Shown in pieces: positions 8,389-16,284 of a stretch of 64,000 nt of DNA. The DNA is taken from assembly GCF_030704535.1 (NCBI RefSeq), contig NC_081807.1, positions 3,947,001 through 4,011,000 of the forward strand, given 5' to 3'. Below the pieces are notes generated by a model that was given only the letters and a program-made list of their open reading frames with translations, searched no databases and was not told the DNA's origin. Origin of the DNA: Vitis vinifera. Taxonomy: Eukaryota; Streptophyta; Magnoliopsida; Vitales; Vitaceae. The translations under genes and the position numbers were made by a program. The number at the start of each line of letters is the position of its first letter. Position 1 is the stretch's first letter.

Positions 8389-10401
8389 ATGAGGTCAATC
8401 AAAGATGGGTTTCGATTTCACGCCCACGCCATAAAAAACGGCATCACATCCACCGTCTTCACATCAAATCAACTCATTCATCTGTACTCCAAACACGGTT
8501 TTTTGGCAGAAGCCCATAAGTTGTTCGATGAAATGCCTGAGCGAAATGTTTTCACTTGGAATGCCATAATTTGGGCTTATATAAAAACCCAGAACTTGAA
8601 ACAAGCGCGGGAGCTATTTGACTCTGCTCCAAGCAAAGATTTGGTGACTTACAATTCAATGTTATCGGGTTATATAAACACTGATGGATATGAGACTAAT
8701 GCGCTTAAATTATTCATTGAAATGCAATCATTGAATGATGAAACTCGAATTGATGAGTTTTCTTTGACGAGGATGCTTAACTTGTCCGCAAAGTTATCCA
8801 TGGAGTCTTATGGGAAGCAACTGCACTCATATATGGTGAAAACTGCAAACAATATAAGTGGGTTTGCTGTGAGCTCTCTTATTGACATGTATTCCAAGTG
8901 TGGGTGTTTCCGTGAAGTATGCCAAGTGTTTGATGGATGTGCTGGGGTGCTTGATTTGGTTTCAAAGAATGCAATGGTGGCAGCTTGTTGCAGAGAAGGT
9001 GAGTTGGAAATGGGCGTGAATTTATTTTGGAGAGACCTGGAGTTGAATGATGTGGTGTCTTGGAACACATTGATTTCAGGGTATGTTCAGAATGGTTGTG
9101 AGGAGGATGCACTGAAGTTGTTTGTTCATATGGAGGAGAATGAAGTGAGATGGAATGAGCACACTATCGCGGGTCTTTTGAGTGCTTGTGCTGGTTTAAG
9201 GAGTTTGAAGCTTGGGAAGGAAGTGCATGGTTGGGTTTTGAAATATGAGTTGGGTTTCAACCCATTCATAAGCAGTGGCCTTGTTGATGTCTATTGCAAG
9301 TGTGGTAATATGAAGTATGCAGAGTTAGTTTATGCGACAATTGGGACTGGGAATGCCTTTTCTATCACTTCAATGATTGTGGGGCATTCCTCTCAAGGCA
9401 ACATGGGAGAAGCTCGGAGGCTTTTTGATTCTTTAACTGAGAAGAGTTCTATCATCTGGACAGCTTTGTTTACTGGGTATGTCAAATCACAGCAATGTGA
9501 AGCTGTGTTTGAACTTTTGAGTGAGTTCAGAGTGAAGGAAGCAATGGTTCCAGATGCTTTGATCCTCATCAGTGTACTGGGTGCATGTGCAATACAAGCT
9601 GCTCTTAATCCTGGAAAGCAGATTCATGCTTATGTTCTAAGAATTGGGATTGAACTAGATGAGAAGTTGGTCAGTGCTATGGTTGATATGTATTCAAAAT
9701 CTGGGAATATAAAATATGCAGAAAAGATCTTCCAAAGAGTTACTAACAGAGATGCAGTCATTTACAATATAATGACAGCTGGGTATGCACACCATGGGCA
9801 TGAGAATCAAGCTATCCAGCAATTTGAGGAAATGTTGGAGAGAGGTGTTAGACCTGATGCAGTCACCTTTGTTGCACTTCTATCAGCTTGCCGCCATTGT
9901 GGTTTAGTAGAACTAGGGGAGAAGTATTTTGCTTCCATGACAGATTACAATATATTGCCTGAAATTGATCACTATGCATGTATGATTGATTTGTATGGGA
10001 GGGCTAACCAACTAGAGAAGGCAGTAGCATTCATGAAAAGAATTCCTATAGAGCCAGATGCTGTAATATTGGGGGCATTTTTGAATGCTTGCAGGATAAA
10101 CAGGAATACAAAACTAGCAAGAGAGGCAGAAGAGAAGATATTGAGAATTGAAGGTGATAATGGGGCTCGATATGTGCAGTTAGCTAATGTCTATGCTGCA
10201 GAAGGGAAATGGGTTGAGATGGGGAGAATAAGGAGGAAGATGAGAGAGAATGAGATCAAGAAGTTTGCTGGTTGCAGTTGGGTATATGTGGAAAACAGAG
10301 TTCATATCTTCACATCTGGTGATAGTTCTCACTCAAGTGCAGAGGCTATATATTCTATTTTACTCATCTTGACTGCAGAACTAAATGATACTGCCCGGTA
10401 G
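8389..10401 (+). CDS. PLS-class pentatricopeptide repeat protein (E subgroup)
   Basis: This is a single uninterrupted exon of 670 residues, as is usual for PLS-class PPR genes. Tandem PPR motifs run almost from the N-terminus; examples are NQLIHLYSKHGFLAEAHKLF, VVSWNTLISGYVQNGCEEDA and AVIYNIMTAGYAHHGHENQA. They end in an E-type tail (GCSWVYVENRVHIFTSGD, then AEAIYSILLILTAEL). No DYW deaminase domain is present. The sequence resembles the Arabidopsis protein At3g18840 over its whole length (remembered similarity). Such proteins bind organellar RNA site-specifically, and E-class members usually serve C-to-U editing by recruiting a separate DYW partner. No clear transit peptide is visible; the PPR array starts very early at this ATG. 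Confidence 0.93.
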   Translation: MRSIKDGFRFHAHAIKNGITSTVFTSNQLIHLYSKHGFLAEAHKLFDEMPERNVFTWNAIIWAYIKTQNLKQARELFDSAPSKDLVTYNSMLSGYINTDGYETNALKLFIEMQSLNDETRIDEFSLTRMLNLSAKLSMESYGKQLHSYMVKTANNISGFAVSSLIDMYSKCGCFREVCQVFDGCAGVLDLVSKNAMVAACCREGELEMGVNLFWRDLELNDVVSWNTLISGYVQNGCEEDALKLFVHMEENEVRWNEHTIAGLLSACAGLRSLKLGKEVHGWVLKYELGFNPFISSGLVDVYCKCGNMKYAELVYATIGTGNAFSITSMIVGHSSQGNMGEARRLFDSLTEKSSIIWTALFTGYVKSQQCEAVFELLSEFRVKEAMVPDALILISVLGACAIQAALNPGKQIHAYVLRIGIELDEKLVSAMVDMYSKSGNIKYAEKIFQRVTNRDAVIYNIMTAGYAHHGHENQAIQQFEEMLERGVRPDAVTFVALLSACRHCGLVELGEKYFASMTDYNILPEIDHYACMIDLYGRANQLEKAVAFMKRIPIEPDAVILGAFLNACRINRNTKLAREAEEKILRIEGDNGARYVQLANVYAAEGKWVEMGRIRRKMRENEIKKFAGCSWVYVENRVHIFTSGDSSHSSAEAIYSILLILTAELNDTAR

Positions 10402-11869
10402 AAAATTAAAACCAGGATGGTTTGTTAACAGGGTATTCTGAATATCAGTTTGCTAAATAAAAGGATTTAGGATACTTTCTAAACTAAGGTTCCAAGTGGA
10501 TATCCAGTCAGGGAGGCTTGCTATGCTAGAAGGTTGCAACTGTGGGACTGTTGTTGATTTATGGAGGTACACACCACTGAGCCAGATAAAATATCTCTCA
10601 CAATTCTAAATATGAAAATGGTAGTGTTGCTTGTTTTCTCTCTTTGCAGTGAAATATATTCCCAACGTGGATGATCAAGATACTAAGCATCTGCTTAAGA
10701 ATTTCTTTTGCTTCTTCCTTATGCAATAGTTCAAAGAGGAAAGGTTTTGCATCATAGCGTTTGTATTGAATATTTGTACACAAACAAACATTTTCACCCA
10801 GAGAAACCATGTATGGTTGCAATTTTATTTTACAAGAAATTTTTGTGTCAAGTTTTCATTCACTACTTAGTAGACATTCTAGGAATTTAAGCATCAGAGA
10901 TTTTGACATGTCCTTGTGTAGACCCCCATTAGGGGCACATTTTTTTCTCTCATTTTGTACAGCTCACTTGCTAGCTGGAGGGCTCCTACAAAGCCAAGTG
11001 TTGCCTCCTAGTTGGTTGCTATGGAATCAACTTAGTGGAGTTGATGGACGAATGGGAAAGCAACACGAATAGGAGGATATGCTAGGGATCTGCAGGCCGT
11101 TATTGGGTAGCAGGCCAGCTGCAAGAAGGGTGGTCTGGGCTGCCGTTGGGGATCTTTTCTGTTAGGGAGGCTGCAGAGATTTTTTTGGAGGCAGGAGTTT
11201 TTGTTTGGTTACTTTTGGGTAGAGAGAGAGGACGCAGCTGCAGGGCTGGAGAGATAGCTTGGGGAGAAGGTTGCTTGAGGGAGGCGTGCAGGGATTCTGC
11301 AGGTATGAGAGAGCTGTGAGGGGGATTTCTGGAGAGCGAGGAGCAGGAAACTGTGAGAGGTAGTGGTGCTTTTGGTTGCTGATTGCTGGAGGAACCTTTT
11401 GGGAGAAGGATTCTGAGCTGAGTATTCACCGAAGACAGAGCAACGAGTCACAACTCAAAACACCCAGCTGAAGAAGAGACTTTCAGGTTTGGTTACTATG
11501 GTTTTCATGTACGTTTCCATTCTTCATACTTTTCCTATCTCATGCTCTGTGATTTTTAACTTTGCTTGTTGAGTTGCTTTGATTGGGTGATTATTGGTTT
11601 AAAATTTGAAGAGTTTGCTGCATTTTATGTTTTACTTTGGCGAATATCTTCCGTCCTAACCCACTGATTGTTAAACTCATGGATGAAATAATGACACGGG
11701 TTTAGCATACTGGTTAAAAGTTCCATGCTCTGTTCTCCTTTCTATTTTTCTTGCTCCTCTGTTTTCCCCTGAAGGAGACTGTCAGGCTTTAAGATCGGGA
11801 AGCTGGAGAGGTTGATTTACGGAGGATGATGATGATATGAAGAGGAGATTGACAGCTATGGGATCTGAA
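10402..11869. other. PPR 3' flank, then a G-rich non-coding leader-like stretch
   Basis: About 10402-10900 is the PPR 3' UTR and flank. About 11090-11490 is unusually G- and purine-rich for this window (gaggacgcagctgcagggct and similar). It ends at a donor-like ttcag|gtttgg near 11486. The 11500-11780 part is T-rich like an intron and ends at a cccctgaag acceptor-like site. This layout looks like the transcribed leader of a gene or element feeding into the mosaic that follows, but no protein was recognised. Confidence 0.3.
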
Positions 11870-12268
11870 TCTGAAAATGCTTGTATGAGGTGGATTGCCT
11901 TATTACTTCACTGAAGAACAGATACAAGAATTGTTTGATTCCATTAGACCCCTGTGTGGTTTTGATCTTGTCAAGGATAGAGACACAGGGAACTCTAAGG
12001 GATATGGTTTCTGTGTTTATCAAGATCCAGCTGTGACTGACATTGCTTGAGCTGCGTTTAATGGTTTGAAAACGAGTGATAAGACTCTCACAGTGCTTCA
12101 TGCCACAGTTGGAAGTGGACAAGCAAAATCAGAGCAAGATAATATATTGGCCCAGGCACAATAACATATAGCTATGCAGAAAGTTGCCTTGCAAGCTGGT
12201 GGTTTGAATTTCCCGGGAGTGGGATGATGGGAGTATGAAGAAATATTGGAGGGCATGAGAGGAATGAG
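11870..12268 (+). pseudogene. U2AF65 (large splicing-factor subunit) fragment
   Basis: In pieces of frame the DNA encodes the middle RRM of plant U2AF65. Recognisable parts are GGLPYYFTEEQIQELFDS-like, LCGFDLVKDRDTGNSKGYGF, CVYQDPAVTDIA, then SGQAKSEQDNILAQAQ and AMQKVALQAGGLNFPG. It jumps to EYEEILEGM-like near 12229-12260, skipping some thirty residues of the normal protein. There are frameshifts and in-frame stops (for example after VTDIA, and a TAA in the AQAQQ segment). It is a dead fragment with no introns visible in the retained part. Confidence 0.85.
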
Positions 12269-12394
12269 CCAAAGAGCAGTCCACAAGGCTATGTTTGAAT
12301 CTGTAGCATTAGCGGCAGCTAGTGTCCTCCAAATCTCCTCCACATGCACCAGAAAATTTATCATCTCCAGTGGGTAGTGTCTCATCTGGGAGAG

Positions 12395-12480
12395 TTTGAC
12401 AAGGCCTAAACTGTTAGAAACAATGACTTGGGTCTATTTTGGGGAATTTGTTGAAATTCAATTTGACAAGAATGGAGGAG
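12395..12480 (+). pseudogene. Myosin XI motor-domain fragment
   Basis: Two frames together match one conserved stretch of the plant myosin XI motor. KA-stop-TVRNND corresponds to NAKTVRNN, and FGEFVEIQFDKNG corresponds to FGKFVEIQFDKNG in the same order and spacing. Only about 28 residues remain and the frame is broken once between them. The identification rests on a short but very characteristic motif. Confidence 0.7.
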
Positions 12481-12619
12481 TACGAAGCATGAACTTCAGT
12501 TTCTGATATCAGGTTCACTTGATGGCCAAGTTCCCATTGGGAAATCACTACCAGAATCACCATCAGTTAGTGCTTCATGTTATATAAACTCCGTAGCATG
12601 GTGATGTAGTGAATCTAAT

Positions 12620-13045
12620 AATGGTGTTGGGAGTACTAATGGGCCTGCATTTGAGTGCATCTTGATGAAAGATTTCCTCAAGTCACTCTCCAAGAGGCTC
12701 AAAGGCAACATCGCTGGTTATGAGAACTACCATAGGGTCTATGTTCCTGAGAGACAGTCTCCTAAGTTTGATCCCAAGGAGCCTTTGCGGGTTTATGTTC
12801 TATTCCAGCATATACAGAAAATGCTGTCGGGCGAGATTACTGTCATTGCTGAGACTGGATATTCTTGGTTTAACTGTCAGAAACTGAAATTGCCTAGGAA
12901 ATGCAGATATGAGTTCCAAATGCAATACGGATCAATTGGTTGGTTAGTAGGCGTCACACTTGGGTATGTACAGGCCACGCCCAAGAAGAGGGTGATGATT
13001 TCTTGCATTGGTGATGGTAGTTTTTACGTGACTCTGCTAGATATC
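12620..13045 (+). pseudogene. Pyruvate decarboxylase fragment
   Basis: An almost open stretch of about 135 residues matches the C-terminal half of plant pyruvate decarboxylase. It runs from [20 protein letters not shown] through [34 protein letters not shown] and [15 protein letters not shown] to [10 protein letters not shown]. The thiamine-diphosphate-binding GDGS motif is retained (CIGDGSF), but the enzyme is otherwise missing. The match stops abruptly in DISxMI at about 13045, where an unrelated gene fragment begins. It cannot make a working enzyme. Confidence 0.85.
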
Positions 13046-13275
13046 TCTATAATGATCCTTTTGATAAGGAACAGGCAGTAGTAGCATTGTGGAAATGTTC
13101 ACTTGAAGGAAAGCAATATATTGATGCTGTAATGCAATCCTGAGGCTGCTTGAATCTCGCAGTAAATCTCCTTAAATCAGATTCCAGTTCTACTTGTGAA
13201 GCAGCTGCAGGCCTTCTACAAGAAATGGCTTCAATTAATCTATACAGAGAGTCAGCAGCAGAAAGCAGGGCAATC
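13040..13275 (+). pseudogene. Armadillo-repeat protein fragment
   Basis: In the frame starting at about 13046 the sequence reads [29 protein letters not shown], stop, GCLNLAVNLLKSDSSSTCEA, AAGLLQEMASINLYRESAAE. This is characteristic of a plant ARM-repeat superfamily protein (remembered similarity to the At1g23180 type). At least one in-frame stop is present. It is fused directly to the pyruvate decarboxylase fragment within an ATGAT word that both ends could share. Confidence 0.7.
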
Positions 13276-13800
13276 TGGGATTACTGATGCTGTTCATCAA
13301 CACTCCCCCACCCATTGCTATCATACCCATGCATATCACCAATTCCTACATATATATATTGCCATACCCCTCATACCCGTTATATCCCTACATTCTGCCA
13401 CTCATCCCACTATTCGATACCCATTCATTTACTAAATCACTTTTTAGCCATCCCACTCACTGTTTAAGTCCGTTTTTCTCATCACCATTCGTCACCCACG
13501 AATCCACTTCCTTTGCTTCCCTACATGTGATCATCCTCATCCGAATGCGCCCTTCATACTCGGCATCTTTCATTCATTTTTGACTCCATATCCATTTAAT
13601 CCCCTTTCCTACTCTATTTTACCCACATTCCTACTTCACTCTCCACATTTTCCCTTTCTTCCACCAACGAACGCGCCATTTTTATTGTCCTTCATCATCC
13701 AAGCCGTCATCCCAACTTTCATATGTTCCAAACTCATTATCCATCAAACCTCATGCATGGGATCTCGTTCTTCCTGTTCTTGGTTGTTAACATGGTATAT
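13276..13800. other. C/T-rich low-complexity stretch
   Basis: The + strand is strongly pyrimidine-biased, with many CCCAT, CCATTC and CATCC words. The long frames here are compositional, rich in His, Pro and Ser, and match no family I know. I see no gene. Confidence 0.5.
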
Positions 13801-14374
13801 ACCAATCCGATGAAAGGAAAGACAGAATCTGATAGATGGGTCAGGAAAGTGATCAATAAGTTGGTATGATTGACCTATGTTTGAACTCAAATGTCCTTCA
13901 TTGCTTCGTATTACACAGTGGTTGGCTGCTATGACAGTTTCGGCATTTCCATTGCTCATTGGGGTAGGGATATCGTGCTACAGGTTGAGAACTGGACTGC
14001 TTGCGTCATTGACTTTCTTGGTTTTGTTGCATTGGATAAACCAACAGGCTTTGCACATGCTATGAAGACGTGAAGTACCCATTATTCACAGGTGTATTGG
14101 GTCCAATTTGAATAATGTCTTGTGCCCAGACCTATGGAGACATGCTGCCCACCCAAGATCATGTTCGAACGGTCCCCTGACAGTCGTAGTACCAGCCACT
14201 GTTTGAATTGGGTTCCCTAGGAAACCACATTAAATATGATGGCTTAGACCAGGTTGAGAAAAATAATGCACCAGTTACTGATAATATTGTTGACAAGCAA
14301 GACAAACTAGAGAATGAGAAACACATGGATTCATTTCCAGATTTCGCCAGAGATTTGTGTTTGATAAAAATGTT
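13801..14374 (+). pseudogene. Unidentified gene-derived fragments
   Basis: Two stretches look protein-derived but were not recognised. About 13877-14073 is open in two frames, one reading VENWTACVIDFLGFVALDKP and the other hydrophobic (WLAAMTVSAFPLLIGVGISC). About 14208-14350 reads NAPVTDNIVDKQDKLENEKH. They lie between the ARM and TMEM45 fragments and are probably further members of the mosaic. Confidence 0.3.
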
Positions 14375-14697
14375 CTCGCGTCAGTTTCTTTGTGGCACAT
14401 ATGCAGCGCAGTAGTGGGATTTGTGATGAACCCAAAGGAGTTTCAGGTTCGGGTTTTGAACCCAGTGTCTGGTTTTGATGGAAGGCTTAGATACTTGGAG
14501 CTTTATGTGTTGGCAATCGGAGCTTTTATTGATATGTGCATAGAGTTTTTGTATTCAACTCGTCTCAAGTTCTTTGTGAATGGGGTCTTGAACCCATCTC
14601 ACACGAATGACTTTGAGCACTCTGGGATGCTTCTCATGTTCTTTATTTTCGGGGTCGTCGCCTTGTTCTCTCAGCAAACTGGGCTTGTCCAAAACTG
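14375..14697 (+). pseudogene. TMEM45/DUF716 membrane protein fragment
   Basis: The open stretch reads FVMNPKEFQVRVLNPVSGFD, RLRYLELYVLAIGAFIDMCI, EFLYSTRLKFFVNGVLNPSH, TNDFEHSGMLLMFFIFGVVA. This is the conserved core of plant DUF716 (TMEM45-like) multi-pass membrane proteins. Both the N-terminal start and the C-terminal helices of the family (about 270-300 residues) are missing, and the match ends at ALFSQQTG. It is a partial, presumably non-functional copy. Confidence 0.8.
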
Positions 14698-15160
14698 AAT
14701 AACCAATGCTCAATAGCCTTCACATAGCTCCGTTTCTGCCCTCACATACTTCCGGCGCGTGACTTGTTTGAATGAGAGCGACTTTCATTGCCAAATAGTT
14801 ACTTGGGGAACCGGTGACGTTACTCCTATTGCAGGATTGCTTGGCAAATCTCAATTCCAGATTCACTTAGGAGGGATCCTTGGCTGCTAATTGGAAGGCT
14901 TCAAGACAGAAGGAAGTGAAGAGTGATGACACCAGGGAAGTGACTTGATTATCTACTCTACACTTGCCTGCTCATGGCCCCAAAATTTCAGAAGTGGTAA
15001 AGAAGCTGGAAGACTGCAAGTTCTGAAATTGACCTAGCCTTTCAAGTTGGGTTCCATACATTGAAATAAGAGGCAGTAGCATGAGTTGTCCTCCAGAATG
15101 GCTCTATTCTCTGCATGGTGCATGGCCACCTTTGGGCCACAGTGCCATTTTCCCATTTCA
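14698..15160. other. Tail of the mosaic, no gene recognised
   Basis: This stretch has moderate GC and an exon-like texture (for example gggatccttggctgc at about 14867). No frame matches a family I know. It may be 3'-UTR-like sequence carried with the fragments. Confidence 0.3.
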
Positions 15161-16036
15161 CCATCTCTAATTTTGAAAAATATTCTTTTAAATCCCTTTC
15201 TTCAAATAATTTTCTAGATCTTAGTTTGTTTTAAAATAATTTCAAACTCATCCATTTTTCATCCTTAGTTGTTTTCTTAGGTTCTCAAAATCCCATTTTC
15301 AATAAATTTTGGTTGCCATTCTCTTTCCGGAAAGCCACTTTTGAATTTTCTTTGTTTTTTAAAATGTTTTAAAATACGCAAGAATCAAATTGTGTAATCC
15401 CTAGTTATGGAATTTACAGATTTGGTCCATGCAAAATAAATGGGCTTTGGTGGGGGCCCAACATCAAATAAAATTTCTTTAAAATAAAAATGAATTTTGA
15501 GTGGAGTGCCATGCGTGCCTTTGATGATTTTGTACTCGATTTAGTGACATGTGAGATATGTTTATGCTCTTTATTTTGCACTAACCCTCTCTCTTGATAG
15601 CGCGTAGTGGCTCGCTGCACAGGTACACACTCATTCCCACTCTGATTAGTCTATATGCGTTTTCTGACTCCCGTATGTGCATGTTTTGCTCTGAGTATTC
15701 ATTGATTTATTCATCCATTGCCATGTCAGCTTCATCTCATTAGTAGAGACCCGACTTAGGGACTTAGAGGGGTGCTACGGTCTTTACCGTACCTTCCCGA
15801 TAGGTAACCTGACCCCCGAACCCGATCCGGTTTTCGTAGATCACATTTTCCAAAATAAGGAGTCACACTTAGGGTTTTTCTTTCTTATTTTGTTTACCCT
15901 TTAAAAAAATAAAACAAAAATAAGTGGCGACTCCAAGTCTTTTTCTTAATCAATAAAAATCAAAATTTTCAAATAAAAATCGAGTTTCGCCATCAAGTGG
16001 GAAACGCATTCGAGCCATCGAAATGCGGGGTCCACA
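15161..16036 (+). mobile_element. Lone Ty3/gypsy LTR, Tat/Ogre-like (fossil)
   Basis: The 3' half carries the signature of grape-type Tat/Ogre LTRs: agagacccgacttaggg, gacccccgaacccgatccgg, aagtggcgactccaag, tcgagtttcgcc, and a gcggggtccaca end at 16036. The left border at about 15161 is approximate and no target duplication was found. No internal gag-pol region and no partner LTR was seen in the window, so this is a solo or truncated LTR. It looks old. Confidence 0.7.
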
Positions 16037-16284
16037 CCTTGCATCTCCTGTGTGGTCTCTTCTGTTGGATTATGGATTGCTACCATCTTCTTTATTTAAA
16101 TTTTTTGTTTTCCTCTTAGTTTGGGAAGTTGCATCAGAATTGCATTATGACATTTATTTCGTTACTATTTACTCTGTGAACTGATTTTGGAACTGAGCCA
16201 TTCTGTTTTCTTCATTTTGGTCACTATTTTGCCCTCTCTACCCTTCTGAAAAATGATAATGTAGTCTGGTGGATATACTCAAGT

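Follow-up and report, generated by a model that had tools for sequence, protein, structure and literature searches.

In a 64,000-nucleotide stretch of the Vitis vinifera genome (C3:3947001-4011000, hereafter the window; contigs are denoted by C and loci by L), exon-like fragments of at least eight unrelated host genes lie end to end. A preliminary description had placed this mosaic at 11870-14697. Our comparison with the whole genome (495.6 Mb in 21 contigs) reveals that the mosaic is the cargo of a single solo long terminal repeat (LTR) from a Ty3/gypsy-type retrotransposon family with very long LTRs. The extent first proposed is close to that of the cargo, which spans about 11888-14700 and lies entirely within a bounded unit at 10917-16036; the LTR that forms this unit had gone unseen.

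The unit (+ strand, 5,120 bp) starts with TGTAGACCC and ends with GGGGTCCACA, and sequence inspection identifies a perfect 5-bp target-site duplication (TSD), CCTTG, on its left (10912-10916) and right (16037-16041). Its termini (TGTAGACCCCC...GCGGGGTCCACA) are of the TG...CA type and recur on both LTRs of a full-length relative on C15, which carries two near-identical LTRs, a primer-binding-site (PBS)-like sequence and a gag frame. The TSD length is fixed at 5 bp in four of the four whole elements. Because such termini, with a 5-bp duplication of its own, also bound the C15 relative, and because no internal LTR pair was found within 10917-16036, the unit is a solo LTR.

Within it, the cargo is framed by a head and a tail. 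The head (10917-11887) is common to sibling LTRs, and the C15 LTR agrees with it at 96% over the first 210 bp. The tail occupies 14701-16036, of which 15172-16036 is common to three other whole LTRs at 85-88%. Alignment of LTR loci further reveals a putative intron in the head, upstream of the cargo (11487-11774, +; CAG/GT...AAG/). Its donor is kept in seven of seven aligned LTR loci and its acceptor AG in six of seven, as judged by eye. If this predicted intron were spliced, the cargo would sit downstream of a start site, in R or U5.

Composition of the cargo

Eight pieces were traced by DNA alignment to genes elsewhere in the same genome, with 82.7-95.6% identity to the nearest gene, and all eight lie in the LTR sense (+). 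U2AF65, decarboxylase, ARM, the helicase domains and, weakly, p24 are named from PDB or Pfam, and myosin, the CDK-like kinase and TMEM45, provisionally, from the look of the frames. The first piece (11888-12219) joins five exon blocks of a U2AF65 gene on C10 (best PDB match 5.7e-14; Pfam RRM_1 3.5e-11). It is followed at 12247-12341 by a piece of a p24/EMP24-family gene on C12, where the Pfam match (5.5e-4, in the C12 gene) is under Pfam's own cut-off, and by an unnamed piece (12332-12384), for which a sibling locus on C6 already has the join to myosin. The myosin piece itself (12385-12476) matches two exons of a C9 gene whose frame we take to be myosin, with one parental intron absent. The window frame gave no myosin match in Pfam or PDB, and its weak matches to carbonic anhydrase (0.057 and 0.067) were taken as chance.

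A second unnamed piece (12470-12625) adjoins the decarboxylase piece not only here but also in sibling LTRs on C7, C17, C9 and C3. The pyruvate decarboxylase piece (12626-13059; gene on C8) has its best PDB match, 1.3e-25, to an ancestral-protein entry, and 4.1e-24 to the first entry so named. It overlaps by 11 nt the piece of an ARM-repeat protein (13049-13274; gene on C1), with Pfam matches of 3.7e-4 in the window and 8.7e-7 in the C1 gene. Near the 3' end of the cargo, a piece of a DEAH-type helicase gene on C7 (14219-14322, with HA2 and OB-fold domains in Pfam) overlaps by 6 nt a piece from C15 (14317-14368), which is presumably from a CDK-like kinase and has no Pfam match. The last piece (14389-14700) matches an open frame on C2 at 95.6%; we take this frame to be TMEM45/DUF716, for which no Pfam match was obtained. 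The match to the parent extends to 14683, with some further match upstream to about 14381.

Thus the five named components of the preliminary description (U2AF65, myosin, pyruvate decarboxylase, ARM and TMEM45/DUF716) are all present in a single orientation, and p24/EMP24, the DEAH-type helicase and the CDK-like kinase are added to them. No identity was assigned to 12220-12246, 12342-12384, 12470-12625 and most of 13275-14217. Within the last of these, an unnamed stretch (13630-14217) aligns at 73-79% to loci on C12 and C3; these loci were dropped as candidates for the parent gene, as their flanks lack splice sites and the C3 locus has a similar C-rich tract. The pieces are interrupted by stops, the longest forward stop-to-stop frame in the cargo being 158 aa.

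A G-poor, C-rich tract occupies 13271-13790 (6% G in the lowest 300-nt window), and a similar tract lies mid-LTR in the three other whole LTRs. In all four, a 300-nt stretch of the sense strand near the middle is G-poor (5.7-8.3% G) and C-rich (35-40% C). These tracts are unlike each other in sequence, and such tracts also occur in other loci. The skew alone is not unique, since two oppositely skewed runs are found in an open 670-codon frame at 8389-10401. This frame, which we take to be a PPR-repeat gene, ends about 0.5 kb before the solo LTR.

Loss of parental introns and the joins between pieces

The pieces had been described as exonic and intronless, and their alignment to the parental genes bears this out: six GT-AG introns are absent at the splice points in the three genes that could be checked. 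In the U2AF65 gene on C10, four GT-AG introns (201, 320, 992 and 86 bp) separate the five blocks, and none is present in the mosaic. Likewise, a 110-bp GT-AG intron of the pyruvate decarboxylase gene on C8 (L031) is missing, and the mosaic continues past the second donor. In the myosin gene on C9, the intron between the two blocks is missing. A 142-bp gap in a decarboxylase-like locus on C7 (L015) was considered as a further intron and dropped, because an LTR-start motif and a 5-bp overlap at the gap identify this locus as a sibling with an insertion.

Six joins were assessed. Three have runs of 11, 6 and 6 nt shared between the flanking sequences, a fourth has 5 nt as judged by eye, and the remaining two have no shared run. 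In random-position controls, runs as long as those of 11, 6 and 6 nt occurred in 0 of 20,000 draws, with P 0.0037 and with P 0.0034, respectively.

Modules shared with sibling LTRs

A second copy of the mosaic, as the preliminary description had proposed to look for, is present on C19. It is 0.2-1.2% diverged over 11249-15171; its head is different, its tail has diverged by 4.5%, and the end of this copy is followed by a PBS-like site. The mosaic is therefore not an assembly artefact. Parts of it also recur singly. The join between the head and U2AF65 is found on C1, C18 and C14, at 79-82% over the aligned block and 87-93% over the U2AF65 part. The module 12470-13009 occurs in LTRs on C7, C17, C9 and C3 at 86-92%, with LTR-start motifs in matching orientation, and the stretch from TMEM45 to the tail occurs on C3, on C6 and at three places on C17, with 96-97% identity in the first 350 bp. 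Furthermore, an LTR on C2 is 98% identical to the window LTR over 13814-14740 and the tail, and then 97.4% identical to a C17 LTR; on these alignments it is a recombinant of the two. The joins are common to the sibling LTRs in a nested fashion, from which we infer that pieces were gained stepwise and then reshuffled among siblings.

The three C17 places (C17:13968538, 14062251 and 14156504) hold near-identical TMEM45-plus-tail LTR pieces about 94 kb apart, which suggests a tandem or segmental duplication.

A family of long LTRs with different cargo

The family is numerous. LTR starts were matched 78 times in the genome at up to 2 mismatches (control, 0), and the LTR end plus PBS at least 509 times at up to 3 mismatches (control, 0). 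The C15 element has two 5,741-bp LTRs with 17 mismatches between them, the TSD GGGTG and, just inside the left LTR, the PBS-like sequence AAAATGGCGACTCCACTGGGGA; its gag frame matches Retrotrans_gag at 9.5e-14. Two further solo LTRs, on C4 (L078; 4,414 bp) and C17 (L079; 6,089 bp), are bounded by the perfect TSDs CATAG and GTATC, respectively. The four whole LTRs measured are thus 4.4-6.1 kb long. They share the head, an approximately 865-bp tail and a few short stretches (48-132 bp), and their remaining middles differ. The first 210 to about 330 bp of the head are well conserved in three of them; in L079 the conserved part is only 27 bp plus a 69% stretch.

The middles of the other LTRs carry pieces of other host genes. 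The C4 LTR contains an ADP/ATP carrier piece (2.2e-24). The C17 LTR contains an EF1-alpha piece (2e-18); in the alignment with its best gene match, on C8, the piece bridges two gaps of about 337 and 99 bp in that match. In the C15 LTR, EF-Tu (2e-18) and Nckap1 (3e-16) pieces are found together with a different segment of pyruvate decarboxylase, which matches the C8 gene at 85.5% in DNA.

The orientation of this cargo was assessed with Pfam in all open stretches of at least 45 aa on each strand, and matches were counted at E <= 0.001. In the four whole LTRs, 8 families were matched in the sense strand (85 frames) versus 2 in the antisense strand (88 frames); this set had been scanned at E <= 0.01, where the numbers are 11 and 2. 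In 14 further partial loci, the counts are 9 families in sense (147 frames) versus 0 in antisense (120 frames), after removal of L020 (10 frames per strand), a near-duplicate of L019, from an initial 15 loci with 157 sense and 130 antisense frames. Together, the two sets give 17 host families in sense (16 distinct ones, as Arm is present in both) versus 2 in antisense, and none is a transposon family; P = 0.0007 is only a guide here, because the second set was recruited by similarity to the window LTR and the pieces are not independent. The sense bias across the LTR family is strong, yet incomplete.

The interiors of the elements at C15:5645651-5667154 (L053-L055) and on C19 (L080) contain gag, with a TORTIFOLIA1-like host piece inside. 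A scan of open stretches of at least 45 aa, covering 53 frames from the C15 interior and, from one C19 stretch, 14 of its 30 frames, found no polymerase family. Because the interiors examined show gag and no polymerase, these elements were presumably moved by enzymes supplied in trans.

Elsewhere in the family, three LTR starts lie on one strand of C16 (C16:3944542, 3958383 and 3972223), 13.84 kb apart, as if arranged LTR-interior-LTR-interior-LTR. Another family LTR contains a 311-codon open sense frame (L034:1-933, -).

Origin of the cargo

Six missing introns, the single sense of all eight traced pieces, 6-11 nt in common at three of the six joins and an LTR remnant with 5-bp TSDs agree with the preference of the preliminary description for an RNA route, with template switching among the mechanisms that it listed. 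The best explanation, and in our judgement a highly probable one, is that reverse transcription switched templates onto spliced host mRNAs, that the pieces were inherited through the copying of the LTR, and that switching between sibling RNAs followed. A reverse transcriptase copying the element RNA would switch at short matches onto spliced host mRNAs, presumably packaged in the same particle, and back again, leaving sense-oriented, intron-free exon pieces within the LTR. The switch would fall within reverse transcription, and the enzyme would come from a helper. Every new element receives a copy of the LTR at each end, so that cargo acquired during one cycle would be inherited in the next. 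Pieces could thus accumulate across many cycles, and switching between co-packaged sibling RNAs would reshuffle them. The last step at the window insertion would be recombination between its two LTRs, leaving the solo LTR between its TSDs. The cargo itself is most likely passive, because its frames are broken.

Several observations weigh against this explanation. Two of the six joins, U2AF65-p24 and CDK-TMEM45, lack an overlap and hold about 15-27 unassigned nt, and the three joins compared with random positions were selected for overlapping alignments rather than at random. At two of these three, decarboxylase-ARM and myosin-to-12470, the comparison involved at least one locus that is a sibling or unclassified; recognised host genes therefore lie on both sides only at the helicase-CDK join. 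Many pieces are only 76-92% identical to the assigned parent, and in some cases the true parent may therefore not be the nearest match. With respect to orientation, the C15 LTR contains an antisense 143-aa frame of a BAHD-type transferase (L053:3869-4297, +; 2.5e-22), and an SEO_C match, which falls somewhere among the four whole LTRs, is also antisense (a rescan of 10 of the 88 antisense frames returned one match, Transferase). Strictly sense capture throughout the family is rejected by these two matches; the uniform orientation first described holds for the window copy and fails for the family. Finally, no polymerase that could have done the switching was seen in the elements examined.

Processed pseudogenes made by long interspersed nuclear elements (LINEs), inserted successively into an ordinary long LTR and then decayed by deletion, would likewise yield spliced pieces, and the unassigned bases at two joins would fit such insertions. 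However, no A-run longer than 5 was found in the cargo, the pieces are internal gene fragments of 52-434 bp, and both the 6-11 nt common to the flanking sequences at three joins and the strong sense bias over the scanned LTRs speak against this origin, which we regard as very improbable.

We consider very improbable an entry at the DNA level, in which LTRs would have acquired the pieces from existing retrocopies or genes by ectopic gene conversion or repair, and reverse transcription would have served only to multiply them. Segment exchange between sibling LTRs is clear, and the antisense transferase piece of the C15 LTR lies within a stretch that aligns over about 790 bp, at 82-91%, to five similar places clustered on C18 (C18:8500521-8542816), both of which this route would accommodate. 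Nevertheless, it does not predict the sense bias, and the precise loss of introns in U2AF65, decarboxylase and myosin would be unexplained unless spliced retrocopies pre-existed.

Helitrons, Pack-MULEs and Pack-CACTAs are the best-known plant collectors of gene fragments (PMC13317346), but collection by such a DNA transposon, with incidental LTR ends, is extremely improbable and is set aside: the bounds are LTR termini with 5-bp duplications (no dedicated search for Helitron or terminal-inverted-repeat ends was made), these termini also delimit the true LTR pair of the full-length C15 element, and in the window copy introns are missing and orientation is uniform.

Comparison with known systems

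In the maize element Bs1, the captured cargo lies between the LTRs. Pieces of plasma-membrane ATPase, xylan endohydrolase and glucanase genes are reported within Bs1 (PMC13317346). Bs1 resembles the present case in being an LTR retrotransposon with pieces of several host genes, but it is a single element and the genes reported in it number three; here, one LTR contains pieces of at least eight, and sibling LTRs hold other gene sets. Surveys of maize, rice and sorghum, together with Bs1, establish the capture of host pieces by LTR elements (PMC13317346, PMC2774510, PMC3726574). In maize, host gene fragments were found in 425 intact elements, with at least 189 independent captures, and that survey reported no element in which two or more standard nuclear genes were represented, in contrast to the window LTR (PMC2774510). 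Abnormal template switching between RNAs was proposed for BARE-2, Veju and Triticeae complex elements, and the LTR of BARE-2 itself is altered (PMC13317346, PMC1950507). In those cases, however, other retrotransposons or DNA of unknown origin served as donors, rather than successive spliced host mRNAs.

The family may belong to the Ogre/Tat lineage of Ty3/gypsy elements. Its very long LTRs (5,120, 4,414, 6,089 and 5,741 bp) are a feature of that group, and its PBS-like sequence and LTR end appear to us to resemble those of Ogre; no polymerase was found in the interiors examined. The family may also resemble TR-GAG elements, defined by terminal repeats and a gag frame, in that terminal repeats and a gag frame are present and no polymerase was detected in the interiors examined (C15 and part of C19). 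To our knowledge, host-exon cargo in long LTRs is no part of the TR-GAG definition. Ogre LTRs measure 1.9-6.5 kb (PMC6431247), and in Vitis vinifera Ogre accounts for about 4% (PMC10845522); the accessible portions of these two reports do not mention host cargo in the LTRs.

The literature searched (titles and starts of abstracts, by phrase searches, which can miss such descriptions) yielded no account of LTRs that contain spliced mosaics of several host genes. Gene capture by LTR elements is known, and multi-gene cargo within the LTR itself appears undescribed in that literature.

Implications

Reports of gene capture by plant LTR elements usually concern a single gene per element, and the window LTR with its siblings departs from this pattern. 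Since every cycle makes the two LTRs anew, cargo within an LTR is present in two copies, and comparison of the LTR pair offers a means of dating it, as for the 17 mismatches in 5,741 bp of the C15 element. The rate and rules of template switching to host mRNA are therefore directly measurable in a plant. Such cargo is also a source of spurious gene models, of antisense or small-RNA targets and possibly of new exons.

More tentatively, and as a possibility somewhat short of probable, the LTRs of this family may act as standing exon libraries, in which a conserved head with a predicted splice donor and acceptor lies upstream of a cargo zone, and template switching to host mRNAs and to siblings rebuilds that zone. 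Many of the several hundred copies would then each hold their own mosaic of spliced host sequence, and the LTR itself might be the source of transcripts and splicing across it. If true, the family would constitute a recurrent RNA-level engine of exon shuffling rather than a set of rare accidents.

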